Of a stretch of DNA of 39,222 nucleotides, positions 10,939 through 37,339 are shown piece by piece. The first letter of the stretch is position 1, and each line of letters starts with the position of its first letter. The position numbers and the translations under genes were made by a program. This stretch comes from Thermoleophilia bacterium. GTDB lineage: Bacteria > Actinomycetota > Thermoleophilia > UBA2241. The DNA lies in the NCBI GenBank assembly GCA_017882325.1, contig JADGPQ010000004.1, forward strand, positions 1 to 39,222, given 5' to 3'. Below the pieces are notes generated by a model. The model worked only from the letters and a program-made list of their open reading frames with translations, was not told the origin of the DNA and did not search any database.

Positions 10939-12036
10939 CTACTTCACGAGCTCGAGGCGCGGATTAGGGCGATACACCCGGCCGACCTTGGCGCAGGGCG
11001 CGCCCTCAAGGCACACGACGTCGGCGGTGAAGTCGGCGACCCCCCGCAGCAGGCTGCTCCCAACGCCGTAGGCATCGGCGGGCACGCCGGCCGCTTCGAA
11101 GGCGGCGATGCGCTCGGCGGTGAAGCCGCCGCTCACGACGATCCGGACGCGCCGAAACCCTTCCGCATCCAGGGCCCGGCGCGCCTCCCTCACCAGCTCC
11201 GGTGCCACTCCCGTCGGCCGGAAGCTCCCCATGCTCGGCCACAGGGCGCGGTCGACGAGCGTCTCCGCGGTGTCGAGGCGGACCCCCCACAGACGCTCGC
11301 CCAGAGCCCGAGCACAGGCGAGACTCGTGCCGACGCAGTCGTTGTCGAAGTCGACCAGCGCCGTGACGTTGAGGTCCGGATAGTACGTGTCGGCGAAACG
11401 GCGGGCGGCCTCGACGGTGTCCCCGCCGCAGGCCGCGATGAGTCCGTGAGGTACTGTGCCGATGCCCTTGCCGCCCCACCATGAGGCCTGTGCATCGGTG
11501 CTGACACCGATGGCCCCGGCGATGTGCGCGGCGTAACCGTCGCCGGTCTGCACGCGGTAGTGGTCGAAACGCGCCGGGAAGAAGAGGATCGGCTTGCCGG
11601 CAGCGGCATCCACCACGCGGCGCACGTTCGTGCTGATCAGGGTGCGCCGCGTAAGCGCTCCGAGAAACACGGTCTCCAAGTGAGCGAAGAGGCTGTAGTC
11701 GCCTTCGATCGTCATGACCGTCTCCCAGGCGGCCACCTCGTCGCCGTCGTACAGGGCGGAGACGGCGAGCTGGTTCCAGCCCGGCTCCCACGAACGCGCG
11801 GCCGCCTCTCCCTCATACCGCCCGGCGCATAGCTTGAGCACGGCGAGCGCCTCGTCCACCCCTCCGAGCACCGCGCGTTCTTGCTTCTGAAAGATCTGCA
11901 TCGTGACCCGAGGATGCAGGTCCTGAGCCTCGAGCACAGCCTTGGTACAGTTGAAGTAGGCGTCGGAGTAGTAGCCCTCCCGCATTTGGTCGAGCGGCAG
12001 GGCGAAGACCTCGGGAGACAGGCGTGAGCGGGGCAT
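10939..12036 (-). CDS. pncB: nicotinate phosphoribosyltransferase
   Basis: REGYYSDAYFNCTKAVLE; MQIFQKQERAVLGGVDEALAVLK; TRRTLISTNVRRVVDAA; VRIVVSGGFTAERIAAFEAAGVPADAYGVGSSLL. Confidence 0.88.
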   Translation of the reverse strand: MPRSRLSPEVFALPLDQMREGYYSDAYFNCTKAVLEAQDLHPRVTMQIFQKQERAVLGGVDEALAVLKLCAGRYEGEAAARSWEPGWNQLAVSALYDGDEVAAWETVMTIEGDYSLFAHLETVFLGALTRRTLISTNVRRVVDAAAGKPILFFPARFDHYRVQTGDGYAAHIAGAIGVSTDAQASWWGGKGIGTVPHGLIAACGGDTVEAARRFADTYYPDLNVTALVDFDNDCVGTSLACARALGERLWGVRLDTAETLVDRALWPSMGSFRPTGVAPELVREARRALDAEGFRRVRIVVSGGFTAERIAAFEAAGVPADAYGVGSSLLRGVADFTADVVCLEGAPCAKVGRVYRPNPRLELVK

Positions 12037-12057: not shown

Positions 12058-13710
12058 TTAGAGTCCGAGCCGGGCGCCCACCTCCGCGAGCACCTTGCCC
12101 GGCGTGACGTCGAAGCGCAGCGCGTAGGCGCCCGCTATTCGAGCATCGAGCAGGAGAAGCCGGTCGGGCGAGCGGCGAAGCGCGCCGGAGCCCTCCACGA
12201 GCGTCCAGTAGGGTGACCACGTGACCTTGAGCAGATAGGTGCCCGGCTGGTCGACCTCCACGGTGAAGTCGCGGTGCCCCATGCGGGTCACGTGCGCGGT
12301 ACCGCCGTTCAGGCCCACCGCGAGCGGCTCGGCGTGACGCAGCCGGTACACCGTCCAGGCGCCGGCGCGATCCACCACTTCGAACTCGGGGGACGTCTCG
12401 AGGATCCTCACCTCGCGCTGGCTCCACGGGTCGAGGGGAGCATCGGGCAGGAAGATGTACTGCACGCCCATACGGCGTAGCCAGGCCACGTAGGTCGCCG
12501 CATCGTAGGGCGTGTAAAAGAGGCCGTTGTGGATCGCATCCGCCTGGCGATACCAGCCGCGCGTGATGGGGTAGCCGGCCTCCGGGAAGTAGTCCGCCTC
12601 CCAATGGCGGCGCAACGCGACGACGTGGATGCGGTAGTTCGGGTCGTAGTACCGCGCCGCCGCGACCAGGGCCGGGGCGAAGAAGCTCGTCCGCGTCTGC
12701 GGCCACTCGTCGGTGCGCGTGAAATGACTGTAGGGGGCGCTGATCTGCAGGAGCCCGAACAGCACGATAGGTATGACGGCCAGGTCGCCGTACGGGAACG
12801 GCCGCTGCAGCCGCGAGTGCCGGAGCAGGAACAGGAGCGGCAGGCCGAACACGAAGAAGAAGCGCCCGATGTTGTTGCCCAGAGGGCTGCCCGGCGTCAC
12901 GAAGGAGAGCACGCAGACGGCCGCATACGTCAGGAACAGGACGACGAAGGGCCGACGCGCGTGGGCGGCGTTGACGCCGGACAGCGCGAGGCCGGCGAGC
13001 GCGAAGCCCAGATAGAGCAGCAGCTGCGACGTCTCGTTCAGATAGCCGCCCGGCTCGCTGAAGGCGATGCCGAGTACGACACGCAGGGCGATGAAGGGCG
13101 CGACCGCGCCTATGAACCACAGGTAGCGGCGGCGCAGTGCCGGCCGCGCGACGACGTCGGACAGCATGAACGGCAGGCACACGACGAAGGCCATCGGGTT
13201 GGCGAAGATGCCGACGCCCACGAGGAGCGCGGCCCACAGCGGCCGTTTCCGCGCCAGCAGGGCCAACCCACCCACAGTCAGCGCGAGCCCGAAGACGAAG
13301 GGGTCCTGACCATGAGCGAGATAGACGCTCATGGTCCCGGCAAAAGCCCAGGCGGGCCAGATGTCGTCGATGCCCCACATGTCCCGCTGGTAGATGTAGT
13401 AGGTGACTGGGAGCACGCCGGCGCAGGCGATCACGATCAGCTTCGACGGCACGTACAGTGCAAGGATGTAGTACACGAACCCGTAGTTGGCGGCGCCGTA
13501 GGCGCCGCCATACCAGAAGTCGTCCCAGAACACCGACTCGCCGCGGCGCAGGAGGAAGATCTTGTACGCGTGGGCGGCGTCGTCCCAGCCGGGCAGCCCA
13601 CCGCGGTACATGAGAAACGCCACGACCGCGACCGCCGCCGTGCTGCCGAGCCAGAGCGCCAGAAGCCCGCGCCGCGACTTGAGGCGCGCCTCGATACTCG
13701 CCAGCGTCAC
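12058..13710 (-). CDS. polytopic membrane protein with C-terminal soluble domain (copy 2 of tandem pair)
   Basis: GTG start overlapping the stop of the upstream paralogue (GTGA). Many TM segments; shared motifs WDD..H.YK..LLR.G.S..WD..WYGG.YGA..YG.VYY, YFPEAGYPITRGWYRQADAIHN, RRMGVQYIFLPDAPL, TWSPYW. Confidence 0.85.
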   Translation of the reverse strand: MTLASIEARLKSRRGLLALWLGSTAAVAVVAFLMYRGGLPGWDDAAHAYKIFLLRRGESVFWDDFWYGGAYGAANYGFVYYILALYVPSKLIVIACAGVLPVTYYIYQRDMWGIDDIWPAWAFAGTMSVYLAHGQDPFVFGLALTVGGLALLARKRPLWAALLVGVGIFANPMAFVVCLPFMLSDVVARPALRRRYLWFIGAVAPFIALRVVLGIAFSEPGGYLNETSQLLLYLGFALAGLALSGVNAAHARRPFVVLFLTYAAVCVLSFVTPGSPLGNNIGRFFFVFGLPLLFLLRHSRLQRPFPYGDLAVIPIVLFGLLQISAPYSHFTRTDEWPQTRTSFFAPALVAAARYYDPNYRIHVVALRRHWEADYFPEAGYPITRGWYRQADAIHNGLFYTPYDAATYVAWLRRMGVQYIFLPDAPLDPWSQREVRILETSPEFEVVDRAGAWTVYRLRHAEPLAVGLNGGTAHVTRMGHRDFTVEVDQPGTYLLKVTWSPYWTLVEGSGALRRSPDRLLLLDARIAGAYALRFDVTPGKVLAEVGARLGL

Positions 13711-15428
13711 TGCCGCAGCTCCGCCTCGGCCGTCGCGGCCAGGTCGAAGCGGAGCGCATAGACGCCCGCAGCCGGAGCTGCGAAGACCATGAAGCCGTAG
13801 GGGTCCTTGTGCAGGAGCGCGCGTCCGTGCGGAAGTGCCTCGTGCTCCCACGAGGCGTCGCGGCGGCCGTCACGACCCCGCTGCGCGGGGTCGTCGGGCC
13901 GCCGCGCCACCTGCCAGTACGGCGACCAGGTCAACTTGACCAGGTAAGGGCCCGGTCGCGTGACGGTGAACCGGATGCTTGTGTGGTCCATGGTCAGTAC
14001 GGAGGCGGAGGCGCTGGCCAGAGGCACCACGAGCGGCTCACTGCGGCGCAGGCGGTACACCGTCCAGTCGGCGCCGCGGTACACGACCGTGAACTCGCGC
14101 GAGCCGTCGAGGATCGCTGCCTCGCGGCGGGCGTCGGCCACGAGAGGCGCGTGAGGGACGAAGACGTACCGCACGCCCATGCGCCTCAGCCAGGACGAGT
14201 AGGCGCCGGTATCGAGGCTGCGGTCGTACAGCTCCTGGTTGTGCAGGGCGTCGTCCTGCCGGTACCAACCCCGCGTGATGGGAAATCCCGCGGCCGGGAA
14301 GTAGTAGGACTCCCAGTGCATCTCCGGCGTCACGACGTGGAAGCGATAGTCGGGGTCGTAGACACGGCCGGCATAGTCAAGCGCGGTCGCGAAGAACGCC
14401 GAACGCGTCGCCGTGAAGCTCTGTGCGTTGGCCAGCATCCAGACGGGGAACGCGAGCTGGAACGTGAGCACGGCGGCAACGGCCGCTGCCGGCACCAGGC
14501 GGGACAGCCTGCTGGGCCAGGCGACCGCAACGACCAGCGGCGCGCCGAACACATAGAAGAAGCGCCCCGCGTTGCTCCCGATCGGCGAGTCCGGCAGAAG
14601 ATAGGCAGGCAAGACGACGACCAGCAGAGCGACGAACACCCACTGCAGCCCGCGGCGCTCCGGCGAGGAGCAGCGACGGGCCAAGGCGATACCGATGAGG
14701 GCGACGATCGTGAGACCACCGAGCTCGGCCATGTAGTGATACTCCCACGACGGAGCGGCGAAGACGGCCGCCAGGGCGATGCGCACCGCACAGACGGGGA
14801 TCATGGCGAGGGCAAAAACGACGATGCCCCGTCGCTCCCGCGGGCGCGCGACTAGCGCCGCCAGCAGAAAGATACCGCCGGCCACGAGCGCCAGCGGGTT
14901 GGTGAACACGCCCAGCGCGCAGGGCAGCGCCCCCAGCAGCGGGTGCCCGCGCGCCAGCAGCGCCAAGCCTCCCATGGTGAGGCACATGGCGAGCAGGAAG
15001 GGCGCTTGCCCCCACGCCAGGTACACGACCATGACCGCCGCGAGAGTCCAAGCGGGCGCGCGGGCGCGCACTCCCCAGCCGTCGCGCAGGTACAGGTGGA
15101 ACAGAAGCGGGAGCAGGCCGCCGGCAAGGACGGTCAGGAGCACCCCGGGGACGAACTGCGCCAGCCAGTAGTACACGATGCCATACGTCAGCGCACCGTA
15201 GCTGCCGCCGTACCAGTAGTTGTCCCAGATCACCGACTGGCCCTCTCGCAGGAGCGCGAGCTTGTAGAGGTGCGCCGGGTCGTCGCCGCCGGAGACGCCG
15301 AGGACGTGCATGGCCAGCATGGCGACGGCGAGCGCCGCGAGCGGCGCGACGGCCAGCCAGAGCAAGGAGCCTCGGGCGGGCAAGCGCAGAGCTCGCGGAG
15401 CTTCGAACGCGGCGACGGGGGAGTTCAC
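13707..15428 (-). CDS. polytopic membrane protein with C-terminal soluble domain (copy 1 of tandem pair)
   Basis: GTG start overlapping the TGA of the CobB-like gene. GDDPAHLYKLALLREGQSVIWDNYWYGGSYGALTYGIVYY; YFPAAGFPITRGWYRQDDALHN; RRMGVRYVFVPHAPL; LTWSPYW. Confidence 0.83.
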   Translation of the reverse strand: MNSPVAAFEAPRALRLPARGSLLWLAVAPLAALAVAMLAMHVLGVSGGDDPAHLYKLALLREGQSVIWDNYWYGGSYGALTYGIVYYWLAQFVPGVLLTVLAGGLLPLLFHLYLRDGWGVRARAPAWTLAAVMVVYLAWGQAPFLLAMCLTMGGLALLARGHPLLGALPCALGVFTNPLALVAGGIFLLAALVARPRERRGIVVFALAMIPVCAVRIALAAVFAAPSWEYHYMAELGGLTIVALIGIALARRCSSPERRGLQWVFVALLVVVLPAYLLPDSPIGSNAGRFFYVFGAPLVVAVAWPSRLSRLVPAAAVAAVLTFQLAFPVWMLANAQSFTATRSAFFATALDYAGRVYDPDYRFHVVTPEMHWESYYFPAAGFPITRGWYRQDDALHNQELYDRSLDTGAYSSWLRRMGVRYVFVPHAPLVADARREAAILDGSREFTVVYRGADWTVYRLRRSEPLVVPLASASASVLTMDHTSIRFTVTRPGPYLVKLTWSPYWQVARRPDDPAQRGRDGRRDASWEHEALPHGRALLHKDPYGFMVFAAPAAGVYALRFDLAATAEAELRQ

Positions 15429-16798
15429 GCGCGAGGTCCGACGAGACGCATCGCTGCGACGAAGCTGGCGGCCAGCGCGGGGCACCTGGGGAGGGAAGGG
15501 TACATGGTCGTGGCCAGGCAACGGCCGAAGGCGAAGCCTTCGGCTTGGCCCGGCTCGCCGGCGTCGCCCACGTGGTAGGCGAACGACTCCTGCTCGAGCA
15601 AGAGGAACTCGAGATCGAACAGCTCATACAGCAGGTTCTCGCCCTCGTCGAACGGATTGCCGCGCGCCGCCCGGGCGCGTACGTACCGGGGACGCTCGTA
15701 CCACTCCAGGAGCTCGGCCTCGGCGGGCAGCACGCCGGCGAGCTCGTGGCTGCGCCCGCGGCTGTCGGCCAGGCGACGCAGCAGCAGGAGCGCGCCGCCA
15801 CCCATGGCGAGAGTGGGCAAGCCGTCGCCGATGGCCTCGGCGAGCGCCGCCTGCAACTCGGTGTTACCGGCGATGGCGGGGAGCTGCTCCTCGTCGAGCA
15901 GTCCGGCGAGCAGCAGACCGCTGACGTCCGGCGGCAGCTCGCGGTCGCGGGCGACGTTGAGCGGCGCGAGCTCGAGTCCCATGGCCTGCAGCATGTCGAC
16001 GTTCTCCAGGGCGAACGGCTCCAGCGGCGGGCCCCAGGCCACCGCGAGCCTCAGGCCGTGGGCGGCCGGAAGCGGCGTCAGCAGCCGCCGCGTACGGCCG
16101 GGCAGAAAACCCCGCCGCGTCGCCGCCGCCAGAAGGTCGTCGCGGCCCAGATACGTTCCCGCCTCGGCGCACAGGAGCCGCTCGCTGCCCTTGACCGGCC
16201 GTTGGCCGATCTGGCGAAGCGAGCCCGCCGCCGAATAGGTCCGCGCGAATTGCTCGCTCAGCTGCGGCGGGATCCAGCCGAGGATGGCAAGGCCGGCGTC
16301 GCGCCGCAGGGTCTGCCCAAGCTCCGCCGCGGCATCACGCTCGTCGCCGCCGACGACGATCACTCCCGCGATCTCGAGGCGGCCCGCAAGGGCGCGCACG
16401 CCGTAGGCCGCGGCCGCCGCCGTGGCGCCGCGCTCACGCCCGTCGAGGACCAGCACAAGAGGCGCGTCGAGACCCGCGGCGATATCGACGGCCCGCGAGC
16501 CCTTCACGCCTTGCCAGCGGTCGAGGGCGGGTTGCACCGCCACCAAGAGGACGAGATCACAGCCCTCGCTCCAGAAGTCATAGAGCTCCAGCACGGCGTC
16601 GTCGTGAAGCGCCGGGTCGAGCACCCGCGGCGCCCTGCCCTCACCGGCGTACAGGAGCCGCCACAACGGGAGATCCGCACCGATGGTGACGGCACGGACC
16701 ACGTGCTGCCCGGCGAAACACGCCTGCAGGGCGCCTGCGGCAAGGGCGACGGCAGGGCCGGGCTCGAGCCCGCACACCACAAGCCGGGGCACAGACAT
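15425..16798 (-). CDS. CobB/CbiA-like (cobyrinate a,c-diamide synthase family) protein lacking recognisable catalytic residues
   Basis: ATG with GGAGGA SD. Colinear with the CbiA domain (LVLVLDGRERG..., LEIAGVIVVGGDERD..., GLAILGWIPP) and class I GATase domain (RLAVAWGPPLEPFALENVDMLQAMGLELAPLNVARDRELPPDVSGLLLAGLL..., LAGVLPAEAEL), but with VCGLEPGPAVALAAG at the P-loop and LAMGGGALLLL at the nucleophile elbow. Confidence 0.78.
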   Translation of the reverse strand: MSVPRLVVCGLEPGPAVALAAGALQACFAGQHVVRAVTIGADLPLWRLLYAGEGRAPRVLDPALHDDAVLELYDFWSEGCDLVLLVAVQPALDRWQGVKGSRAVDIAAGLDAPLVLVLDGRERGATAAAAAYGVRALAGRLEIAGVIVVGGDERDAAAELGQTLRRDAGLAILGWIPPQLSEQFARTYSAAGSLRQIGQRPVKGSERLLCAEAGTYLGRDDLLAAATRRGFLPGRTRRLLTPLPAAHGLRLAVAWGPPLEPFALENVDMLQAMGLELAPLNVARDRELPPDVSGLLLAGLLDEEQLPAIAGNTELQAALAEAIGDGLPTLAMGGGALLLLRRLADSRGRSHELAGVLPAEAELLEWYERPRYVRARAARGNPFDEGENLLYELFDLEFLLLEQESFAYHVGDAGEPGQAEGFAFGRCLATTMYPSLPRCPALAASFVAAMRLVGPRA

Positions 16799-16918
16799 GA
16801 ACGCGTCCTCCTTTCGGCCGGCCGCGCTGTCCAGACAGCCGGGGGTCCGCGCGCGAAACGGACTTCGGGTCCCAAGGTAGAATACCTTACTCGCCCGAGT
16901 CACAGCGCGGAGGTATGA

Positions 16919-18766
16919 GTGGAGGGGATGGACCTGCGCAAACAGCTGCACGACGTGCTGTGGGCTCGCGTGCTCTTCACGCTGGCCCTGCTGCTCGCCG
17001 TGCTATGGGTCCAGATCGGCGATCACGGCCTCGTCGGCGCGGAGCTGCTGGCCTGCCTTGCGGTGGTCGTCGTCGTCAACGTGCCCTTCTTCGTGCTCGA
17101 GAACCGCGTGCAGACGCGGACGCTGGCCGGGGCCATCGTCGTCCTGGACATCGCCCTCGTGTCCATCGCCATCATCTTCAGCGGCGGCGCCCTCAGCGCC
17201 GTACCAGTCTTCTACGTGTGGCCCATCGTCCTCGCGACGGTCTTCCTGCCGGCTTGGGTGCCGTACGCCGCGGCGGCGGCGGCCGGGGCGGCGTACGCCG
17301 GCATCTGGGAGCTGCAGCACGTCGGGTGGCTCCGCGCGACCGCCATGGTGGCCGAGATCAACGTGCCCCCCAGCTGGATGCCGATGGTGGTGTGTCTGCA
17401 CGTCGCCGCCTTCCTGCTCATCGCTCTCCTGGCCGGCCGGTTCGCCACGGCTCTCGTGCGCACCACCGTCCAGCTCCGCAGCGCCAAGTCCGACACGGAC
17501 GAACAGCTGCGGCGCATGCAGTCCACCAACGAGCAGCTCCGCGTGATGAGCGAGAGCAGCCGCGTCTTTCTTCGCCACCAGGACGTGGACGCGCTCATGC
17601 CCGAGGCGCTCAAGCAGATCATGGGCGCCTCGGGCATCGGCGCGGGCTTCGCCCTCCTGCTCAACCACAACAGCGGCGAGCTCGACGACAAGGCGAACCA
17701 TGGGCCGCTTGACGCAGCCTTTGTCCGCAAGATGAAGGAGCTCGGGATCGCCGACGTGGCCAAGACAGGAGCGCAACTGCACAAGACGGTCACCGATCCG
17801 CAGATCGGCCGGTTGCTCAAGGCAGCTGAGAAAGGGGGCTTTCACGGCTTCGTCACGGCGCCGCTGGAGGCCAAGCACGAGCTGCTCGGCTTGATCTGCC
17901 TGCTCTACCGTCAGGACGAGACCGTGTCGGCGGCGGCGCTGTCCACCGTGCGCGCGCTCAGCGACCAGGTTGCCCTGGTCGTGCGCAACATCCAGTACAA
18001 CGAGGAACTCGCGCGCAAGAATCGCGAGCTCACGCACCTCGACGAGCTCAAGAGCGATTTCATGGCCACCATGAGCCACGAGCTGCGCACTCCTCTCACG
18101 TCGATCATCGGCTACAGCGACATGCTCCTGAGCGGGATGACCGGCGAGCTCAACGAGAAGCAGGGCGTCTTCGTCGAGAGCATCCTCAAAGGCGGAGAAG
18201 CGCTCCTGAACCTCATCAACGACATCCTCGACCTCACCAAGATCGAAGCCGGACGGCTGGAGTTGAACCCTGAATCGGTCGACCTTCGCGCGGCTCTGCT
18301 GGGCGTACTGCCGGTCGTCAAGCCGCGCGCGCAGGACAAGAGGATCCGCATCTCGACGTTTCTGCCCACCGACCTTCCGCTGGTGTCGGCCGACCCGGCG
18401 AAGTTCAACCAGATCCTGCTCAACCTGCTCACCAACGGCATCAAGTACACGCACGACAACGGAAGCGTGAGCGTCGAGGCGCGGACCGCCGGCGACATGG
18501 TCGAGATATGGGTGAACGACACGGGGATCGGCATGGCCCGGGAGGATCAGGACAGGGTCTTCCAGCGTTTCACGCAGATCGACTCCTCCGCCACGCGCAC
18601 GCAGGGTGGCACGGGGCTCGGCCTCGCCATCGTCAAAGAGCTCGTGGAGCTGCACGGCGGCACGATCCGCGTGCAGAGCAAGCTCGGCAAAGGCTCCAGC
18701 TTTATCTTTACCATGCCGATATCAACCAAGCCCGCCGATCCGCTGTCGGCCGGCAAGATCAGCTGA
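16919..18766 (+). CDS. sensor histidine kinase (N-terminal TM region, GAF-like, HisKA, HATPase_c)
   Basis: FMATMSHELRTPLTSIIGYSDML; NQILLNLLTNGIKYTHDNGSV; VNDTGIGMAREDQDRVFQRFTQIDSSATRTQGGTGLGLAIVKELVELHGG. Confidence 0.95.
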   Translation: MEGMDLRKQLHDVLWARVLFTLALLLAVLWVQIGDHGLVGAELLACLAVVVVVNVPFFVLENRVQTRTLAGAIVVLDIALVSIAIIFSGGALSAVPVFYVWPIVLATVFLPAWVPYAAAAAAGAAYAGIWELQHVGWLRATAMVAEINVPPSWMPMVVCLHVAAFLLIALLAGRFATALVRTTVQLRSAKSDTDEQLRRMQSTNEQLRVMSESSRVFLRHQDVDALMPEALKQIMGASGIGAGFALLLNHNSGELDDKANHGPLDAAFVRKMKELGIADVAKTGAQLHKTVTDPQIGRLLKAAEKGGFHGFVTAPLEAKHELLGLICLLYRQDETVSAAALSTVRALSDQVALVVRNIQYNEELARKNRELTHLDELKSDFMATMSHELRTPLTSIIGYSDMLLSGMTGELNEKQGVFVESILKGGEALLNLINDILDLTKIEAGRLELNPESVDLRAALLGVLPVVKPRAQDKRIRISTFLPTDLPLVSADPAKFNQILLNLLTNGIKYTHDNGSVSVEARTAGDMVEIWVNDTGIGMAREDQDRVFQRFTQIDSSATRTQGGTGLGLAIVKELVELHGGTIRVQSKLGKGSSFIFTMPISTKPADPLSAGKIS

Positions 18767-18779
18767 GGAGGTACGCACT

Positions 18780-19148
18780 GTGGCGAAGGCCATCCTGGTA
18801 GCAGACGACGACCCCGACATCCTGAGCATAGTGTCGATGTCGCTCGAAACGCAGGGCTACACGGTCTACAAGGCGGCGAACGGGCGCGAGGCGGTCGACC
18901 TCGCCAGGCAGCATCATCCCGACCTCGTGCTCATGGACATGATGATGCCGATCGTGAGCGGCTACGAGGCCGTGGCCGAGCTCAAGGCCGACGCGGCGAC
19001 ACGCGATATCACCGTCGTCGGCCTCTCCGCCAAAGCCATGGCCACCGACATGGAGCGCGCCACCGACGTCGGCATCGACGGATACATCACGAAGCCCTTC
19101 CGCATCGCCCAGGTGCTCGCGGTCGTCGAGAGTTATCTGCAGGGCTGA
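18780..19148 (+). CDS. single-domain response regulator (CheY-like)
   Basis: GTG start with GAGGAGGT SD; VAKAILVADDDPDILSIVSMSLETQGYTVYKAANGREAVDLARQHHPDLVLMDMMMPIVSGYEAV...GIDGYITKPFRIAQVL. Confidence 0.95.
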   Translation: MAKAILVADDDPDILSIVSMSLETQGYTVYKAANGREAVDLARQHHPDLVLMDMMMPIVSGYEAVAELKADAATRDITVVGLSAKAMATDMERATDVGIDGYITKPFRIAQVLAVVESYLQG

Positions 19149-19631: not shown

Positions 19632-20999
19632 GTGAGCCTCCAGCTCAAGACGACCGCAGTCGTGGCGGTCGCCCTGGGCGCTTTCTTCTACGCGGCCACC
19701 TACTGGATCGACTTCCAGTCCACCTGGGAGCTGGCCGCCGCGGTGCTGGCCCTCTTCGCCCTCATCGCCCTGACGTTCGACCTCTGGGTCTACCGGCCTC
19801 TCAATGGGCTGATTCGGCGCGCCCGCCATCGGCTGGGCGGCAACTACGAGCGCAAGGACCCCTACTATCGCGACGAGACCCGCGAGCTCGGGCATCTGGT
19901 CGGCACCCTCATCGCCGTCTTCACGGCCGCCGAGGACAAGGAGTGGGTGTCGCAGAGCATCAAAGCCGACCTCGAGCGCGTGCAGGCGCTGAACCGGCAG
20001 CTCATGGACCTCGGCGAGCTCGGCAAGGAGATGAACGCGGCCCTGCCGTATCGCGAGACGGTGGAGCGCGTGCTCTCGCGGAGCAAAGCCTTTCTGCACG
20101 CGGACTTCGCCGCGCTGCTCCTTCTGGACGCCGACGCTCGCGCCTTCTCCCTCGAGGGCGCGCAGGGCGTCCTCTCCCCCACGCTCTCCGCGGAGTGCTG
20201 CGCCTTCACCCCCGACTGCCCCGTGCGCCAGGCGCTCGCCGGCGGCCAGCTGGTGCGCACCACCGACCACACCTGCACGCTCTTCCCGCACACGATGAAG
20301 AACCAGGTCGTGATCCCCGTGCACATCGAGAACCTCGGGGACATGGCAGTGCTGGCGACCTTCACTTCGGGCGATTACGTCGCCCTGCTCTCCGACGACA
20401 TCCTTGTGGCGCTGCAGAACCACGTGCAGAGCGCGCTGACGAACGCCCACAAGTACGACGCCATCCGCCGGCAGATCGTCACCGATCACCTCACGGGCCT
20501 CTACAACCGGCGGTTCTTCATGAACCGCGCCGGCGAGGAGATCGAGAGAAGCCTGCGCTATCAGGCGCCGCTGAGCGTCCTCATGGTCGACATCGACCAC
20601 TTCAAGCAGTTCAACGACACGTACGGCCATGCCACCGGCGACCGCGTGCTGCAGACGGTCGCGCGGGCCATGCAGGACGCCCTGCGCAAGCCCGATATCT
20701 GCGCCCGGCACGGCGGCGAGGAGTTCGCCGTCCTGCTGCCGGGCACGCCGGGCGAGAGCGCGTACTACGTCGCCGAGCGCGTGCGTCGCACGCTGAGCGG
20801 CACGCGCTACACGGGCCTAGGACTGCCGGCGGCAGCCAATATCACGATCAGCGTAGGCGTCGCCACCTGCCCGCGTGACGCAACTGAGCTGGACGCCCTC
20901 ATGGAGCTATCCGACAAGGCGCTGTATCGCGCCAAGGCGGCAGGGCGTGACCAGGTGGTACTCCACGGCGCGGAGCAGCGCGAGCGAGTCAGGAACTGA
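19632..20999 (+). CDS. diguanylate cyclase (TM, GAF-like, GGDEF)
   Basis: DHLTGLYNRRFFMNRAGEEIERSLRYQAPLSVLMVDIDHFKQFNDTYGHATGDRVLQTVA...RKPDICARHGGEEFAVLLPG; RxxD (RKPD) lies five residues before GGEEF. Confidence 0.95.
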   Translation: MSLQLKTTAVVAVALGAFFYAATYWIDFQSTWELAAAVLALFALIALTFDLWVYRPLNGLIRRARHRLGGNYERKDPYYRDETRELGHLVGTLIAVFTAAEDKEWVSQSIKADLERVQALNRQLMDLGELGKEMNAALPYRETVERVLSRSKAFLHADFAALLLLDADARAFSLEGAQGVLSPTLSAECCAFTPDCPVRQALAGGQLVRTTDHTCTLFPHTMKNQVVIPVHIENLGDMAVLATFTSGDYVALLSDDILVALQNHVQSALTNAHKYDAIRRQIVTDHLTGLYNRRFFMNRAGEEIERSLRYQAPLSVLMVDIDHFKQFNDTYGHATGDRVLQTVARAMQDALRKPDICARHGGEEFAVLLPGTPGESAYYVAERVRRTLSGTRYTGLGLPAAANITISVGVATCPRDATELDALMELSDKALYRAKAAGRDQVVLHGAEQRERVRN

Positions 21000-29497: not shown

Positions 29498-30796
29498 TCA
29501 CGGCTGTTGCGGCATGCCCCAGTCTTGCTCGATGACCTCGAGCACGGCCCGCGCCATGCGGTCGCCGCCGGCCCGCGACAGGTGGATCCCGTCGGGCGCG
29601 CGCATGAGCACGGGATCGCCGTTCGCGTCCGGGAGGTACTCGGCGTAGGAACCCTTCTCGTTGGCGAACAGAGCCCAGGTGGGGATGTAGAACACACCCG
29701 GCTGTTTCTTGGCTTCGGCCTCGTAGATGTGGTCCATCATCGAGATGCGCTCCCGGTAGTTGGGGTCGCGCATGATCGGGTTACCGACCCAGTACGCCCG
29801 GCGTCCGCCCTTCGTCAGGATGTCCATGGCCTTGCCCACGCGCTTCGCGTAGACCTCCTGCCACGCCTTACTGCCCACCTCCAGCACTTTGCCCTTATGG
29901 AGCACGTTCTGGCCGTCGTTGGCGCCGAAGAGTACGGCGGTGGCGTCGGGGCCGAACTCGACGATCTGGTCGATCATCCGCTGCGGCCAGTCGAAGAAAT
30001 CGGGGCGGCTCAGGCCGCTCGATACCTTGTAGTCGAGCTTGGCCTTGACGAGATGGGTCTCTTCGGCGAGGTTCTCGAGCGACGACCCGAAGACCTGGGC
30101 CATCGAATCGCCGATGATGTAGAGACGCAGCGGGTGCTTGCGGGTGATCTTGCGCGGCCATTTCGGCTTGGCCTTGTTCTTGACCTCGGCGATGGAGTGG
30201 TGAGCCGCGTCGCCGCGCCCAAGCATGGCGTTGAGCGCTTCGGCCGGCCGGTCGAGCTGCAGAGCGCCGCTGAGAACGACCATGGGCTTGAGCAGGGCGA
30301 GCTGAACGCTGCGCGCGGTGCCCAGCGGCTTGCCCTTCACTGCGGTCTCGATGGCCTTCGCGTCGAGCAGCCCGGCGACGAAGAAGCCGATGAGCATGGC
30401 CGCGAGGACGGCGCCCGCGGAGAGCCGGCGGCGGCGCGGCCGGCGGCGCTCGGGCACGTGACCGAGCGCGTCCGGACCGAACGGGCCGCCGGCTCCGTCC
30501 CCGGCAGCAGGCTCGCCCCGCTGCGCGCCCTCGCCGGGGTCGAGCCAATCCTGCCATTCGTCGCCGGCGCCGCGAGCCGGCGCGGCGCGGCGCGGCGGCA
30601 GGGCGCCTTCGTCCCCCGACGGCCGTGACTCATGTGGGGCGCGCGACCTCCGGGACTCCCCGGGGACGCGCCCCGGCTCAGGATCGGCTTGGCGGGGGGG
30701 AGGCCGCAGGCCGTCCCACACGAAGAGGTCGTCGGCGGCGCCGTCGTCGGCGAACGGCAGCCTCCCCGAGCTTTCGTCGTGTCGCTCGTCGGTCAT
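29498..30796 (-). CDS. DUF459/SGNH-hydrolase-fold membrane-anchored protein (copy A)
   Basis: TM segment LSAGAVLAAMLIGFFVAGLLDA; LRLYIIGDSMAQVFG; ATAVLFGANDGQNV; MRAPDGIHLSRAGGDRMA. Confidence 0.88.
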   Translation of the reverse strand: MTDERHDESSGRLPFADDGAADDLFVWDGLRPPPRQADPEPGRVPGESRRSRAPHESRPSGDEGALPPRRAAPARGAGDEWQDWLDPGEGAQRGEPAAGDGAGGPFGPDALGHVPERRRPRRRRLSAGAVLAAMLIGFFVAGLLDAKAIETAVKGKPLGTARSVQLALLKPMVVLSGALQLDRPAEALNAMLGRGDAAHHSIAEVKNKAKPKWPRKITRKHPLRLYIIGDSMAQVFGSSLENLAEETHLVKAKLDYKVSSGLSRPDFFDWPQRMIDQIVEFGPDATAVLFGANDGQNVLHKGKVLEVGSKAWQEVYAKRVGKAMDILTKGGRRAYWVGNPIMRDPNYRERISMMDHIYEAEAKKQPGVFYIPTWALFANEKGSYAEYLPDANGDPVLMRAPDGIHLSRAGGDRMARAVLEVIEQDWGMPQQP

Positions 30797-30824
30797 GCTC
30801 GATCGCCCTGTGTTCCTCGCCGCA

Positions 30825-32264
30825 TCAGAACTTGAAGTAGAGGAACTCGGCCGCCCCCTGCGGGCCGAGCGTGTTGATGAGGAACAGGGCGAGCGCAAGA
30901 ACGGCGCCCTGCCCCACCCAGCCGATGCTCGCCAGTCCGCCTTCGAGGCGCTCGATCAGGCGGCGCGGAACGTACTGGATGCCGATGCCGAGCACGACGA
31001 GGCCCACGATAGGCCAGGTGACCGCCGAGCCGATGCTGCCCAGCCCGGCCACGAGCCGCCAGAGGACCGCGAAGGCGCCGCCGATCGAGTCGGCGCGGAA
31101 GAACACCCAGGCCACGCTTACGAAGGCGAACACGGCGAGACGCTGGAGCACCCGCGCCCCGGCCGTCGCGCCCGGCTCGGGCAGACCCCGGGCTTGGCGC
31201 GCGTCGGCGCGGGCGCGCTCCAGCGCCAACCCGACGCCGTGCATGCCGCCCCAGAACACGAACGTCCAGCCGGCGCCGTGCCACAGGCCGGCGAGGAGGA
31301 ACGTGACGATGAGGTTCACGTAGGTGCGGCCGCGGCCCTTGCGATTGCCGCCCAGCGGGATGTAGAGGTAGTCCCGCAGCCAGCTGGACAGCGTGATGTG
31401 CCAGCGTCGCCAGAAGTCCTGGATGGTGCGCGCGGTGTACGGCGCGTTGAAGTTCTCGGGCAGCTCAAAGCCGAGCAGCAGCGAGATGCCGATGGCGATG
31501 TCGCTATAGGCGCTGAAGTCGCAGTAGATCTGCACCGAGTAGGCGACGATCCCCCACAGGGTCTCCCAGGACGAGAACGACTGCGGCGAGGCGAAGACGC
31601 CGTTGACGATGTGCGTCGACAGGTAGTCGGCGATCAGCATCTTCTTGGCGAGACCGCCGAGGATGAGGACGAAGGCGCGGCCGGCGTCGACATTGCATGG
31701 GTCGCGCGGCGAGCGCAGCTGCGGCAGGAACTCACGGGCACGGGTGATCGGGCCCGCAAGGAGGTACGGGAAGAACGCCACGTAGACACCGAAGTCGAGC
31801 GTCGAGGACGGCGCCAGCTCCCCGCGGTAGATGTCGATCGTGTAGGTGAGCACGCGGAAGACCAAAAACGAGATGCCCACCGGCAGAAGGATGCGCAGGA
31901 GAGGCAGGGGGGCGCCCAAGCCGAAGCTGCTGAGCAGGTGGTCGAGGTTGACGGCGAAGAAGTCGACGTACTTGAAGTAGCCCAGCGCCGCGAGGTTGGC
32001 GATCACTGACAGCGCAAGCCAGCGCTTCGCGGCGCGCTCGCCGCCGCGGCGTCTGCGGGCGCGGGCGATCTGCACGCCGAGCGCCTGGTTCACGAACGTG
32101 GCCGCCACGAGCAACAGGACGAAGCGCCAGTCCCACCAGCCGTAGAAGACGTAGCTGACGCCGATGATCATCCACTTCCAGAGCCGGAGGCGCGGCATGA
32201 GCAGCCAGTTCGCCGCGTACACGAGCAGGAAGAAGACCGCGAACGTGATGGTCGGGAAGAGCAT
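30825..32264 (-). CDS. MBOAT family O-acyltransferase (AlgI/DltB-like), full length (copy A)
   Basis: MLFPTITFAVFFLLVYAANWLL; YCDFSAYSDIAIGISLLLGF; FWRRWHITLSSWLRDYLYIPLGGNRKG; GLWHGAGWTFVFWGGMHGVGL. Confidence 0.95.
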   Translation of the reverse strand: MLFPTITFAVFFLLVYAANWLLMPRLRLWKWMIIGVSYVFYGWWDWRFVLLLVAATFVNQALGVQIARARRRRGGERAAKRWLALSVIANLAALGYFKYVDFFAVNLDHLLSSFGLGAPLPLLRILLPVGISFLVFRVLTYTIDIYRGELAPSSTLDFGVYVAFFPYLLAGPITRAREFLPQLRSPRDPCNVDAGRAFVLILGGLAKKMLIADYLSTHIVNGVFASPQSFSSWETLWGIVAYSVQIYCDFSAYSDIAIGISLLLGFELPENFNAPYTARTIQDFWRRWHITLSSWLRDYLYIPLGGNRKGRGRTYVNLIVTFLLAGLWHGAGWTFVFWGGMHGVGLALERARADARQARGLPEPGATAGARVLQRLAVFAFVSVAWVFFRADSIGGAFAVLWRLVAGLGSIGSAVTWPIVGLVVLGIGIQYVPRRLIERLEGGLASIGWVGQGAVLALALFLINTLGPQGAAEFLYFKF

Positions 32265-32359
32265 GCCCGCGATGCTACTACAGCGGCCGCGGGCAGAGCA
32301 GTCCCCGGAGCGCCTGCCGCAGCCGTTCGGCAGAGGCCGGCCAGGTCAGAACGGCGGCA

Positions 32360-33368
32360 TCAGGGCGCCGGAGTAGCCTTCGCCGACGCCTTCGGCGACG
32401 GCGCTGCGGAGCCGGCGCTCGCCTTCTTCTTGCCGAGCCACTCGGCCTTGGTGGCGGCCATCACGACCTCGGCAAGGCGCGCGCCGCCCGCGTAGGTGAG
32501 GTGCTCGCCGTCGCCGTCGCGGACCTGCTGCGAGTAGCCGCCGCTCCCGCTGAACACCCTGTACGCGTCGACGTACTGCACGCCCGAGTGTTTCTTGGCC
32601 TCGCGGCTGTAGATGTCGTTCACGAGTCGCATCTGCCGGTCACACGTAGAGTCCGGCATGATGGGGCCGACCGACCCAGTAGATGCGCCGGACGCCGCCG
32701 CCGAAGAGGATCGTGATCGCGTCGTCGACGCGCTTGCGATACTCCTTTTCCCAGCCGCTGGAGCCGAACCGGTAGACCTTCCCTGAGGACGCCCGCACGC
32801 CCTGATTGACGTTGGCGCCCAACATGACCACCGCGGCGCCGGGAGCGAAGGCCTTGGCTTACCGCTGGAGTTGCGCCGGCCAGTTGAAGAAGTCCGGCCT
32901 CACTAGCCCGGTGGAGATGTGGTAGTCGAGCAGCGGTTTGATGAGATGCGTGTCGTTGGAAAGGTTCACCAATGCCATGCCGGGGATGCCGGCCATCGAA
33001 TCGCCGGCCATGTAGAGGTGCATCGGGTGGCCGGTGTACGGCTTGGGCAGCGGCTTGTCCGCAGGCTTCGGGCGGGGCTTGCCCGAGGGCGTCGTGGGCG
33101 AAGGCGTGGGCTGGGGCGTGACGACCACGAGGGCCACGGGCGTGGGCCCGGGGTCCGGCTTGCCGAGAGCCGCGGCCGCCGCCGGGTTCACGAGAGCGAG
33201 ACGGAAGCTGCCGTGGCCGCCGAACGGCAGCTCCATGGCGGTCTTCGTCATCGCCGGAGCGTTGAACAGCACCCCGAGGACGAAGGCCACGGGGATGGCG
33301 ACGAGCGCGCTGGCGGCCGTCCGGGGGCGGCGGCCGAAGGGAAGCTTGTCCGGGTCGCGGTCGTTCAT
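32360..33368 (-). pseudogene. DUF459/SGNH gene (copy B) disrupted by an in-frame TAA and a frameshift
   Basis: MNDRDPDKLPFGRR...MHLYMAGDSMAGIPGMAL...RPDFFNWPAQLQR-*-AKAFAPGAAVVMLGANVNQ...RRIYWVGRP-[fs]-IMPDSTCDRQMRLVNDIYSREAKKHSGVQYVDAYRVFSG...DGEHLTYAGGARLAEVV; compare intact copies A and C. Confidence 0.85.
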
Positions 33369-33649
33369 CAGAAACGGAAGTAGAGGAAGGAGGCAGGGCC
33401 GGCTGGGCCGAGGACGTCGAGCAGCATGAAGCCGACGGCGAGCAGCCCCCCCTGAAGGAGCGGGTTGAGCAGCGAGAAGCCTGCCTCAACCCGCTCGTAC
33501 GCGCTGCGCGGCACGTATTGGATGCCCATGCCGACGGCGATCACGAGCAGGACGGCCGGCGTGACGGCGGCGCCGACGCCGCCCCAGCCGCGAAGGAGCT
33601 GGGCGAGCACGCTGAGCGCCGCCGCGAATGTGATGGTGGGAAACAGCAT
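33368..33649 (-). pseudogene. MBOAT gene (copy B) with large in-frame internal deletion, 93-aa ORF
   Basis: MLFPTITFA (identical to the copy A start) is followed directly by a C-terminus matching copy A: IGMGIQYVPRSAYERVEAGFSLLNPLLQGGLLAVGFMLLDVLGPAGPASFLYFRF vs IGIQYVPRRLIERLEGGLASIGWVGQGAVLALALFLINTLGPQGAAEFLYFKF. Confidence 0.8.
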
Positions 33650-33798
33650 GCGTGCGAGTCCGGCCTCAGTCTGGGGAAAGGGACGGCCCGCCGTAGCAGG
33701 GGTTCGCGAGGCACGGCGCCGCGCGTGGACGCGAACGGCGCACGCTGTGCGGGGCGAGCCGACCTGCCGTCTGGCGCCCGGCCGGCTCGCGTGCTGCT

Positions 33799-34161
33799 CT
33801 ACCGCTCGTGAACCACAGCCTCGAGGTTGTTACCGTCGAGGTCGTGGATGTAGGCCGCATAGTAGCCCGGGGCGTACTGTTCACGCGGACCGGGCGGCCC
33901 ATTGTCGGTGGCTCCCGCGCCCAGCGCCTGCTCGTAAAACGACCCGACGGCGGCGCGATCCTTGGCCACCAGAGCGACGTGCACGCCCATCTTCCGCTCG
34001 CCGCGACTGAGCCACAGCCGCGGCCGCCGCGCGCCGAATCCCACGATGCCGTACTCCTCGTTCTCATACAGGACCTTGTAGCCAAGCGGCGCCAGCGCCG
34101 TTGCGTAGAGCTCGCGGCTCGCCGCAAGGTCGGTCACCGGGATGCCCACGTGGTCGATCAT
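33799..34161 (-). CDS. VOC family (glyoxalase/bleomycin resistance-like) protein
   Basis: MIDHVGIPVTDLAASRELYATALAPLGYKVLYENEEYGIVGFG...YAPGYYAAYIHDLDGNNLEAVVHER. Confidence 0.93.
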   Translation of the reverse strand: MIDHVGIPVTDLAASRELYATALAPLGYKVLYENEEYGIVGFGARRPRLWLSRGERKMGVHVALVAKDRAAVGSFYEQALGAGATDNGPPGPREQYAPGYYAAYIHDLDGNNLEAVVHER

Positions 34162-34261
34162 GCTGCCCTCCTCGTCGTACCTGACATCTGCGTCACCGTG
34201 TACGTCACCGGACGGGCCCGGCGGCAAACCGCAGCCGGCCGTCATCCCATATCATGGGCCG

Positions 34262-35431
34262 GTGACCACCGTTCCGTCAGATACGCAGAACGCCCTTCGC
34301 GATGGGATCATCGAGCTCACCTTCGGGGAGCCCGACCCGGCGCTGCTGGCGGTCGGGCTCGTGCGCCAGGCGGCGGCCGACGTACTCGACGACGCTGGTC
34401 CGGCGGCTCTCGCGTACGGGTCGCCGGCAGGCCCCGCCGCCCTGCGCCAAGAGATCGCGCGCCGCATCGCGGCGCGCGAAGAGCGCGCCTGCACGGCGGC
34501 CGACGTGCTCGTCAGCGGCGGCAACTCACAAGCCCTCGGGCAGGCGCTCACGGTGCTCACCGCGCCGGGCGACGCGGTGCTGGTCGAGTCGCCCACCTAC
34601 AACTTGGCGCTCGGCATCATGCGCGACCACGCGGTCGAGATCGTGGGCGTACCGCTCGACGAGGAAGGCCTCCAGCTCGGCGCGCTGCAAGCGGCGCTCG
34701 CGGAGCTGCGCACCGCCGGCAAGCGCGCCCGTCTTCTGTACACGATTCCCACGTTCCACAACCCGGCCGGTGTGTCGCTCTCCGCGAAGCGGCGGCAGGA
34801 GCTCCTCGAGATCGCCGCCGAGCACGGCCTTGTGATCGTCGAGGACGACGTCTATCGCGAGCTCGTCTACGAAGGACAGGCGCCCCCCGCCATCTGGGCC
34901 CTCGAAGGGGAAGCTCCGGTCGTCCGCCTGGGTTCGTTCTCCAAGACGCTGGCTCCGGGGCTGCGGGTAGGTTGGATCAACGCGTCCGGCAGCCTTCTCG
35001 AACGCCTGGCCGCGTCGGGTGTGCTGGAGAGCGGAGGCTGCGTCAGCCAGTTCGCCGCGAGTGTCGTCGGCCGGCTGCTCGCCTCGGGCGGCTACGACGA
35101 GCACGTCGCGGTGCTGCGCCGCGTCTACGCGGCGCGTCGCGACGCGCTGGCCGCGGCGCTGCGCGAACACCTGCCGGCCGGCTGTACCTTCGCGCTTCCG
35201 GCCGGCGGCTTCTTCATCTGGCTCGGGCTCCCGCCCGGCCTCCTCGCGACCGGGTTGCTCCCCGTGGCCGAAGCGCGCGGCGTCGCCTTCGCGCCGGGAG
35301 CGCGCTTCTGCAGCGACGCCGACGATCGCAGCCTGCGCCTTGCCTTCAGCCTCTACGACGAGCAGACATTGCAGGAGGGCGCGCGGCGCCTGGGGGCGGC
35401 CGTGACCGCCGCCCAGGCCGGACGCGCCTGA
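34262..35431 (+). CDS. PLP-dependent aminotransferase class I/II
   Basis: ELTFGEPDPALL; YGSPAGPAALRQEIARRIAAREE; SGGNSQALGQAL; YTIPTFHNPAGVSLSAKRRQELLEIA; VRLGSFSKTLAPGLRVGWI. Confidence 0.93.
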   Translation: MTTVPSDTQNALRDGIIELTFGEPDPALLAVGLVRQAAADVLDDAGPAALAYGSPAGPAALRQEIARRIAAREERACTAADVLVSGGNSQALGQALTVLTAPGDAVLVESPTYNLALGIMRDHAVEIVGVPLDEEGLQLGALQAALAELRTAGKRARLLYTIPTFHNPAGVSLSAKRRQELLEIAAEHGLVIVEDDVYRELVYEGQAPPAIWALEGEAPVVRLGSFSKTLAPGLRVGWINASGSLLERLAASGVLESGGCVSQFAASVVGRLLASGGYDEHVAVLRRVYAARRDALAAALREHLPAGCTFALPAGGFFIWLGLPPGLLATGLLPVAEARGVAFAPGARFCSDADDRSLRLAFSLYDEQTLQEGARRLGAAVTAAQAGRA

Positions 35432-35485
35432 GCCGCGGGGACGCACCCTCCGCTACCGCGGCGCACTTCCCGCCGCAGACCGACC

Positions 35486-36319
35486 TCAGCTCCGTGAGCT
35501 GGGGGAGCCGCGGCCGGCGTCGCTGCCGCGGTCGTCGTGATGACCGTGGCGGCGCGGGAGGCGCAGGTGCGGCTTGCCGCCGATGACGTCCCACAGATAG
35601 TGCTTGCGCTGCCGCCAGCGACGGTTGAAGCCCTCGTCGCGACGGCAGGCCCTCTCGAGCTTGCCGGGATTGTTGGTGTACCGGCTGTGCGCCCACGGCG
35701 AACCGGGCTTGGCGAGGCGCAGCGCGCCGATGACGGCGACAGGGGGGACGAAGATGCCCACCGTCCCCATGAACAGCTTGCCCTTGAGGTAGCTCACGAT
35801 GACGAAGGCGGCGCCGCTGAAGATGAGGGCGGAGCCGATCCAGCGCGACATCTCGGTCAGGTCTCCGACCTGGCTGATGCTGCGCGGCGTCAGGCCGGTG
35901 AGCAGCAGCGTGATGAAGGTGACGCCGAGGATCACGGCGTCGATCGAGGCGCGCCCCTCGCCGGTCCAGTAGACGTCATCGAGGTGAAGGATGAGCGCGA
36001 ACTCGTCGAGGGTGAGGGCGGCGCCCGAGCCGAAGCAGAGGGCAAAGAACTCGATCCACGGGCTCCCCGGCTGCAGGGCGAACTCGAGGATGCCGGCGAC
36101 GGTCATGCCGATGATGCCGAACACCGAGTGGTGGATGTGCAGCCCGCCGCGCGTGACGACGCTGCCCGCGCCGAGCCGGGAGCCACCCCTGGCGCGCGTG
36201 ACGCGGGTGTTGAGGCGCGCCAGGACGAAGGTGAGGAGGAAGCCGGCGAGCAGGAAGAGCAGCGGCCGCTTGGCATCGTCGAACACGTGCCCTGAGACTG
36301 TGGCGAGGACGTAGAGCAT
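35486..36319 (-). CDS. integral membrane protein with GGLHIHHSVFG and DEFALILHLDDVYW motifs
   Basis: ATG at 36319; several hydrophobic segments and conserved-looking His/Asp motifs; charged His/Arg-rich C-terminus. Confidence 0.75.
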   Translation of the reverse strand: MLYVLATVSGHVFDDAKRPLLFLLAGFLLTFVLARLNTRVTRARGGSRLGAGSVVTRGGLHIHHSVFGIIGMTVAGILEFALQPGSPWIEFFALCFGSGAALTLDEFALILHLDDVYWTGEGRASIDAVILGVTFITLLLTGLTPRSISQVGDLTEMSRWIGSALIFSGAAFVIVSYLKGKLFMGTVGIFVPPVAVIGALRLAKPGSPWAHSRYTNNPGKLERACRRDEGFNRRWRQRKHYLWDVIGGKPHLRLPRRHGHHDDRGSDAGRGSPSSRS

Positions 36320-36418
36320 CACGCCTCTATTATCGGCGCAGAAGGCGGTCCGCAACCACCCGGGCGTCGGGGCGGCGGCAGACCGCCCGCGCCGCGCCGC
36401 GCCGGGCGCCGGTCCGAG

Positions 36419-37339
36419 TCAGACGGACGGGCTGGCGGACGCCGAGGAGCCGGCCGCGGGCGTCGGGCCCGGCGACGGCAGACCGTCGGGCAGCCAGTCC
36501 TTCGCGACATCCTCGAGCACGGCCCTGGCAAGACGCTGCTGACCTTCGACGGTGAAGTGTACGCCGTCCGCCAGCCGCAAGCCGGCCACATAGGCGCCGT
36601 CGGCGTCCACGAAGAGTCCCCAGGCGTCGACATACTGAGCCCCCGGGTGCTGCGCGGCGGCGTCCTGGATGATCGTGTTGATGAGCTTCATGCGCGAGTT
36701 GCGCCACGACTCCTTCATGATCGGCATGCCCACCCAGTACACGCGCCGGGCGCCGCCCTTGAGCATCGTCTCCATCATGTCGGAAACGCGCTTCTCGTAG
36801 GCGGTCTTCCATTTGGAGGTGCCGTAGGAGATCCACGTGCCGCGGTCCCACACCGACTGGGTATCGTTGGTGCCCATCATCATGACCATCGCGTTGGGCT
36901 TGGCCGTGCGCATGACGGTCTCCATCTTCTTGCCCCAGTCGAAGAAGTCCCAGCGGCAGATGCCCGAGGATTCCTTGTAGTAGACGGTGGGCTTGAAGGC
37001 CTTCGTCTTCTCGAGCATGGGCCCGAGGGCCCAGCCGAGCTCGCCGCCCATGGAGTCGCCGCCGACCCAGACGCGCACCGGGTCGGAAGTGCTCGCCGCC
37101 CACACCCTGGGCGGCGGCGTCGTGGGCTTCGGGCTCGCCGAGGCCGCGGCCGGATTCGGACCCGTGCCGCCCGTCTCGTCCTCGCCCTTCCCGCAGCTGA
37201 TCACGACCGCGGCGATGATCGCGGCCACGACCAGCACGAGAAGGACGAGCATGAGAAGCCGCCGCCGGGCCAGCTGGCGCCGCCGGCGGCGCGGATCGCG
37301 AGGTGGTGTGGGTGCGTAGGTGCTGTGATCCATAGGCAA
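36419..37339 (-). CDS. DUF459/SGNH-hydrolase-fold membrane-anchored protein (copy C)
   Basis: TM/lipobox-like N-terminus LLVLVVAAIIAAVVISCGKG; VRVWVGGDSMGGELGWAL; MVMMMGTNDTQSV; RRVYWVGMPIM; LADGVHFTVEGQQRLA. Confidence 0.85.
   Translation of the reverse strand: MPMDHSTYAPTPPRDPRRRRRQLARRRLLMLVLLVLVVAAIIAAVVISCGKGEDETGGTGPNPAAASASPKPTTPPPRVWAASTSDPVRVWVGGDSMGGELGWALGPMLEKTKAFKPTVYYKESSGICRWDFFDWGKKMETVMRTAKPNAMVMMMGTNDTQSVWDRGTWISYGTSKWKTAYEKRVSDMMETMLKGGARRVYWVGMPIMKESWRNSRMKLINTIIQDAAAQHPGAQYVDAWGLFVDADGAYVAGLRLADGVHFTVEGQQRLARAVLEDVAKDWLPDGLPSPGPTPAAGSSASASPSV

Follow-up and report, generated by a model that had tools for sequence, protein, structure and literature searches.

A putative CobB/CbiA-family pseudoenzyme kept under purifying selection in two Thermoleophilia families, usually beside a sensor-kinase pair

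Cobyrinate a,c-diamide synthases of the CobB/CbiA family combine a synthetase domain with a GATase_3 domain. Some members of enzyme families are non-catalytic, and to our knowledge bacterial pseudoenzymes have been little studied. PDX1.2 is a plant vitamin B6 pseudoenzyme that regulates its own pathway (PMC6829848). In the lipid II amidotransferase MurT/GatD, mutagenesis established that Cys94 and His189 of GatD are essential (PMC5871853). Here we describe a gene whose product shares the two-domain CobB/CbiA architecture, as profile matches, AlphaFold2 and Foldseek agree, and in which the counterparts of both GatD residues are replaced. It lies in the window, i.e. the whole 39,222-nucleotide stretch of contig JADGPQ010000004.1 that was analysed, and has the following parts:

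15425-16798, minus strand: CobB-derived pseudoenzyme gene, 457 aa (profile matches, alignment, predicted structure)
Residues ~1-235 of its product: N-terminal dethiobiotin-synthetase-like domain
Residues ~250-457 of its product: C-terminal GATase_3 domain
16745-16753, minus strand: codons of residues 16-18, AVA where 26/26 genuine CobB proteins have GKT (alignment)
15788-15802, minus strand: codons of residues 333-337, the dead nucleophile elbow, with Gly333 for Cys (alignment)
15500-15502, minus strand: codon of Tyr433, at the catalytic His position (alignment)

The reading frame starts with an ATG at 16798, from which the codon coordinates of residues 16-18, 333-337 and 433 were counted, and ends with a last sense codon at 15428 and a stop at 15425-15427; AAAGGAGGA sits 5′ of the ATG. 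The frame contains no internal stops and has the 457 codons that a preliminary description had given it, on the minus strand. The NCBIfam CobB model PRK01077 (NF002204) matched residues 22-387 (E=3.1e-27) and TIGR00379 matched residues 52-448 (E=4.3e-21), with all CobB models remaining under their cut-offs (95.6 bits for PRK01077 vs a curated cut-off of 254). Pfam returned GATase_3 (E=2.3e-8) and, sub-threshold, AAA_26 (E=8e-4). The structure prediction that the preliminary description had proposed, run with AlphaFold2 on a single chain and a 56-sequence alignment, yielded a confident fold (mean pLDDT 91, pTM 0.90). Foldseek matched the N-terminal domain to dethiobiotin synthetases and the C-terminal domain to GatD (6gs2; TM 0.66 by target, E=1.5e-10); a search of a viral structure library gave nothing informative. 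Hence the earlier reading of the protein as CobB/CbiA-like over both domains is borne out: it is a full-length two-domain homologue. Orthologues across genomes and their dN/dS ruled out an annotation artefact as the source of the gene.

To compare active sites, 30 orthologues from the Thermoleophilia families f1 (12) and f4 (18), hereafter the clade, were aligned with 26 genuine CobB proteins of the same class. GKT (16-18), EG (86-87), Cys333 and His433 were present in 26/26 CobB proteins and in 0/30 clade members; K38, D45, N59 and H392, likewise found in every CobB, were lost in the clade, and H395 occurred in 25/26 CobB proteins. The window protein reads GLEPGPAVALA where the family has GxxSGxGKTTxA, LAMGGG where it has YAECGG, and TTMYPSL at SYxHLHF, exactly the changes that the preliminary description had seen at the P-loop (no Lys), the elbow (no Cys) and the SYVHLHF motif. 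It was also right that the histidines of the family HEFH are absent, but their replacement is YELFDLEF (E392, D395) and not LLLEQESFAYHV, which stands ∼12 residues later. An independent profile alignment to PDB GatD placed Gly333 at Cys94 and Tyr433 at His189 of the Staphylococcus aureus protein. The f4 members have a partial P-loop remnant (APTHRTGLA vs GTHSGVGKT) and a His two residues past the catalytic position, both of which are gone in f1. G299, A331, G334 and G335 are invariant in 56/56 sequences (clade and CobB), and no other stretch of 12 residues is as well conserved in the clade as the dead elbow (326-337).

The alignment gives good support to the loss of both active sites: none of the 30 orthologues has a Walker A Lys or a catalytic Cys where these residues align, in line with the earlier proposal of a candidate pseudoenzyme. 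With the ATP P-loop, the nucleophile Cys and the catalytic His all gone, the protein, to judge from its sequence, is incapable of CobB catalysis through the known mechanism. The fold is kept and the catalytic residues are lost (AlphaFold2, Foldseek, alignment); since defining features of CobB failed when tested, we file the protein as CobB-derived and not as CobB.

The gene is also decoupled from corrin synthesis. Among the 33 genomes of f1 and f4 searched, genuine CobB above the cut-off was found in exactly the eight that carry the corrin ring marker CbiC (Fisher p=7e-8), most genomes being without CbiC. The pseudoenzyme, present in 30/33, does not share this co-occurrence and is independent of CbiC (p=0.56). 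In the window's own genome (92% complete), a search for CbiC and genuine CobB found neither, and two other GATase_3 matches were both weak.

By family, the pseudoenzyme was found in 13/15 f1 genomes (57-91% identity), one of which (G004) has it divided between two contigs, and in 17/18 sampled f4 genomes (∼30-36% identity). As to the three genomes without it, absence from G037 is attributable to a contig that ends within ∼300 bases of the adjoining chorismate-mutase gene, and completeness is 84% for G001 and 80% for G014. The f1 genomes are Thermoleophilia/Actinomycetota metagenome bins, several of them from lakes or wetlands by bin name. One f4 genome, G086, has two divergent copies (G086:C78:32564-33874 and G086:C111:4729-6030), and a separate chorismate-mutase-like gene and BFN gene follow each of them. 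A profile of the clade, applied to a wider sample of 397 Actinomycetota genomes, gave the four clade members in that sample 570-654 bits and everything else ≤ 232 bits; no further clade member was found in this sample, and the best 16 outside matches all had GKT and ECGG. A separate observation concerns family f6 (L022-L027, L030), in which a pair of CobB-like genes per genome is frequent; in one type the P-loop context is odd, APHRSSGKTT, with Cys and His intact, and this type may act on another tetrapyrrole.

In the tree, the f1 and f4 copies formed one clade with support 100/100, separate from all 33 genuine CobB proteins, a grouping to be taken with caution as both pseudoenzyme groups sit on long branches. 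AU tests against trees in which a family joins its own CobB gave p=0.039 (f4) and p=0.055 (f1), which are marginal alone. Shared synteny with the kinase described below independently favours a single origin; together with the AU tests it disfavours the idea that each family recently duplicated its own CobB locally.

The surroundings of the gene in the window are as follows:

10939-12036, minus strand: nicotinate phosphoribosyltransferase-like gene, downstream in most f1 loci (profile match)
12058-13701, minus strand: memb2, second GT-C-like membrane protein, paralogue of memb1, start approximate (sequence comparison)
13707-15428, minus strand: memb1, GT-C-like membrane protein, GTG start overlapping the pseudoenzyme stop (sequence, fold match)
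16799-16918, no strand: divergent intergenic region of 120 bases between pseudoenzyme and histidine kinase (sequence)
16919-18766, plus strand: membrane histidine kinase with predicted membrane part, GAF, HisKA and HATPase_c (domain matches)
18771-19148, plus strand: single-domain response regulator, receiver only, start codon approximate (domain match)
19632-20999, plus strand: GGDEF diguanylate cyclase-like protein, in most f1 loci (neighbourhood comparison)

The histidine kinase divergently adjoins the pseudoenzyme at all f1 loci retrieved, and at all but one it is followed by the single-domain response regulator. An orthologous pair occupies the same divergent place in eight f4 genomes, where the surroundings otherwise differ (gyrB-gyrA-Zn-peptidase upstream, a chorismate-mutase-like gene and BFN downstream). 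Genetic linkage to this pair thus spans both lineages, and the pair, on which the preliminary description was silent, is the only companion common to f1 and f4. The kinase motifs are invariant in the 16 kinases compared; the receiver matches Response_reg and by eye has the usual Asp, Ser and Lys. The sensor module of the kinase was detected in 21 of 56 genomes, adjoining the pseudoenzyme in 21/21. It was not detected in the 26 of these 56 genomes that gave no pseudoenzyme either, or in nine f4 genomes where the pseudoenzyme stands alone (Fisher p=1.6e-8 for the association, a value that ignores phylogeny and so overstates independence). As the kinase was not found without the pseudoenzyme in these genomes and the pseudoenzyme sometimes occurs without the kinase, the dependence looks one-way.

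The preliminary description had instead looked for a role beside the coupled membrane proteins. Coupling is real in the window's genome, where the memb1 start and the pseudoenzyme stop overlap as GTGA, but G007, G010, G012 and all f4 loci lack memb1 at this position; being unconserved even across f1, the coupling was set aside as a key to function. The fold of memb1 matches AftD/OST/ArnT (pLDDT 73), and the tandem memb1-memb2 (12058-15428, minus strand; ∼45% identity) has no Pfam family. Elsewhere in the window, in a cluster at 29501-37339 (minus strand), DUF459/SGNH is matched three times and an MBOAT acyltransferase is present; the cluster resembles an envelope O-acylation locus.

Within the divergent region lies a perfect inverted repeat, AAGGTA-GAA-TACCTT (16874-16888), and most f1 and f4 loci have a TATTC core in the equivalent position; the repeat is a possible promoter element or regulator site. 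Neither the window nor the divergent region gave an RNA element in an Rfam search, and a sigma-70 and terminator scan found nothing. In all f4 loci, a small chorismate-mutase-like (CM_2) protein is encoded directly downstream of the pseudoenzyme (L049:10470-10844, plus strand); in f1 the gene is elsewhere in the genome (G000:C12:1382-1669 in the window's genome). The AroQ family usually has RE at a position where most CM_2 copies read QED, and the CM_2 protein beside the f4 pseudoenzyme may also be catalytically altered.

Selection on the pseudoenzyme was estimated from pairwise dN/dS within the genus, which was 0.147-0.269 in 9/10 pairs and 0.416 in the remaining one (G005-G006). The window copy gave 0.147 and 0.150 against the two closest genomes, so the earlier view of a gene selected rather than decayed stands. 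These values fall within the range of orthologous neighbour genes (0.14-0.31; one neighbour value, 0.547, compares paralogous membrane genes). With orthologues across species, in which the search reported no internal stop, the data indicate purifying selection.

We favour, at a probability of roughly 0.55, a vertically inherited CobB/CbiA-family pseudoenzyme that works as a binding or regulatory protein, the kinase and receiver being its likely partners where present. The two-domain CobB fold is kept and the CobB catalytic residues are lost; the protein would bind or regulate instead of catalysing, and the emptied glutaminase pocket would most likely bind a small ligand or a partner surface. 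Conservation within the clade is highest at the glycines of the pocket's elbow and oxyanion hole, which may reflect folding constraints. That the pocket, with Cys changed to Gly and the elbow and oxyanion hole kept, is a metabolite sensor, e.g. of glutamine or another amide, reporting to the kinase, is a more speculative proposal that we consider rather improbable. A receiver-only response regulator has no output domain and would have to act through protein contacts; since it needs a protein target, the pseudoenzyme is a candidate partner. Against such a partnership, the genes are divergent and form no operon, and the constant downstream neighbour in f4 is the chorismate-mutase-like gene; above all, nine f4 genomes have the pseudoenzyme but lack the kinase, which therefore cannot account for the whole of the pseudoenzyme's role. 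These same nine genomes, in which the gene lies between the Zn-peptidase and the chorismate-mutase-like gene, are what speaks for a non-catalytic subunit or scaffold of another process, its kinase adjacency being inherited synteny without functional meaning. We hold this possible but doubtful, because the kinase pair is the sole neighbour kept in f1 and f4 despite rearrangement of all else, and because the sensor half was not found without the pseudoenzyme in the 56 genomes.

The other explanations fare worse than the binding or regulatory reading. A new catalytic activity could use other residues, e.g. the clade-specific R121, D345, R349 and E362, which are invariant or nearly so across the clade but seldom or never stand at those positions in CobB; yet no nucleotide-binding or nucleophile motif is recognisable and the fold neighbours need the lost residues, making this unlikely. 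Amidation with free ammonia, as in some amidotransferases that lack the glutaminase Cys, would be compatible with loss of that Cys alone, but the loss extends to the ATP site and to K38 and D45, candidate substrate residues, and CbiC is absent from most genomes, and we regard it as very improbable. A decaying pseudogene would likewise show active-site loss; we give it hardly any credence, given a dN/dS of 0.15-0.27 in 9/10 genus pairs, 30 genomes that carry the gene with no internal stop reported in any copy, and a confidently predicted fold. Strong selection in nearly all f1 and f4 members, usually beside a sensor-kinase pair, leads us to conclude that the CobB-derived protein probably has its own regulatory or binding function.

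In the open-licence literature searched, we found neither an earlier description of this pseudoenzyme nor a CobB/CbiA member that has lost both the ATP and glutaminase centres and is fixed in two families. If the kinase link is true, vitamin B12 synthesis would have supplied signalling with an accessory protein of a new type. In practical terms, loose homology searches would call the clade genes CobB in genomes without a corrin pathway, and such miscalls could give false B12-synthesis assignments for uncultured actinobacteria.

Of known systems, CobB/CbiA cobyrinate a,c-diamide synthase (NF002204, TIGR00379; CfbB is a relative) has the same length, domain order and fold and shares the elbow and oxyanion-hole glycines, D61, D93 and D119, whereas the pseudoenzyme lacks the P-loop, EG, Cys, His and other CobB-invariant residues and is unlinked to corrin genes. 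Its C-terminal domain has the GatD fold of MurT/GatD (PDB 6gs2, 5n9m), with Gly333/Tyr433 for the Cys94/His189 dyad, and unlike in MurT/GatD its N-terminal domain is dethiobiotin-synthetase-like and not a Mur ligase. That domain has the fold of dethiobiotin synthetase (PDB 1dbs, 3fgn) without the P-loop GKT. PDX1.2 (PMC6829848) differs in fold and kingdom and regulates its own pathway, whereas here the parent pathway is mostly absent; both are non-catalytic members of vitamin-pathway families kept by selection.
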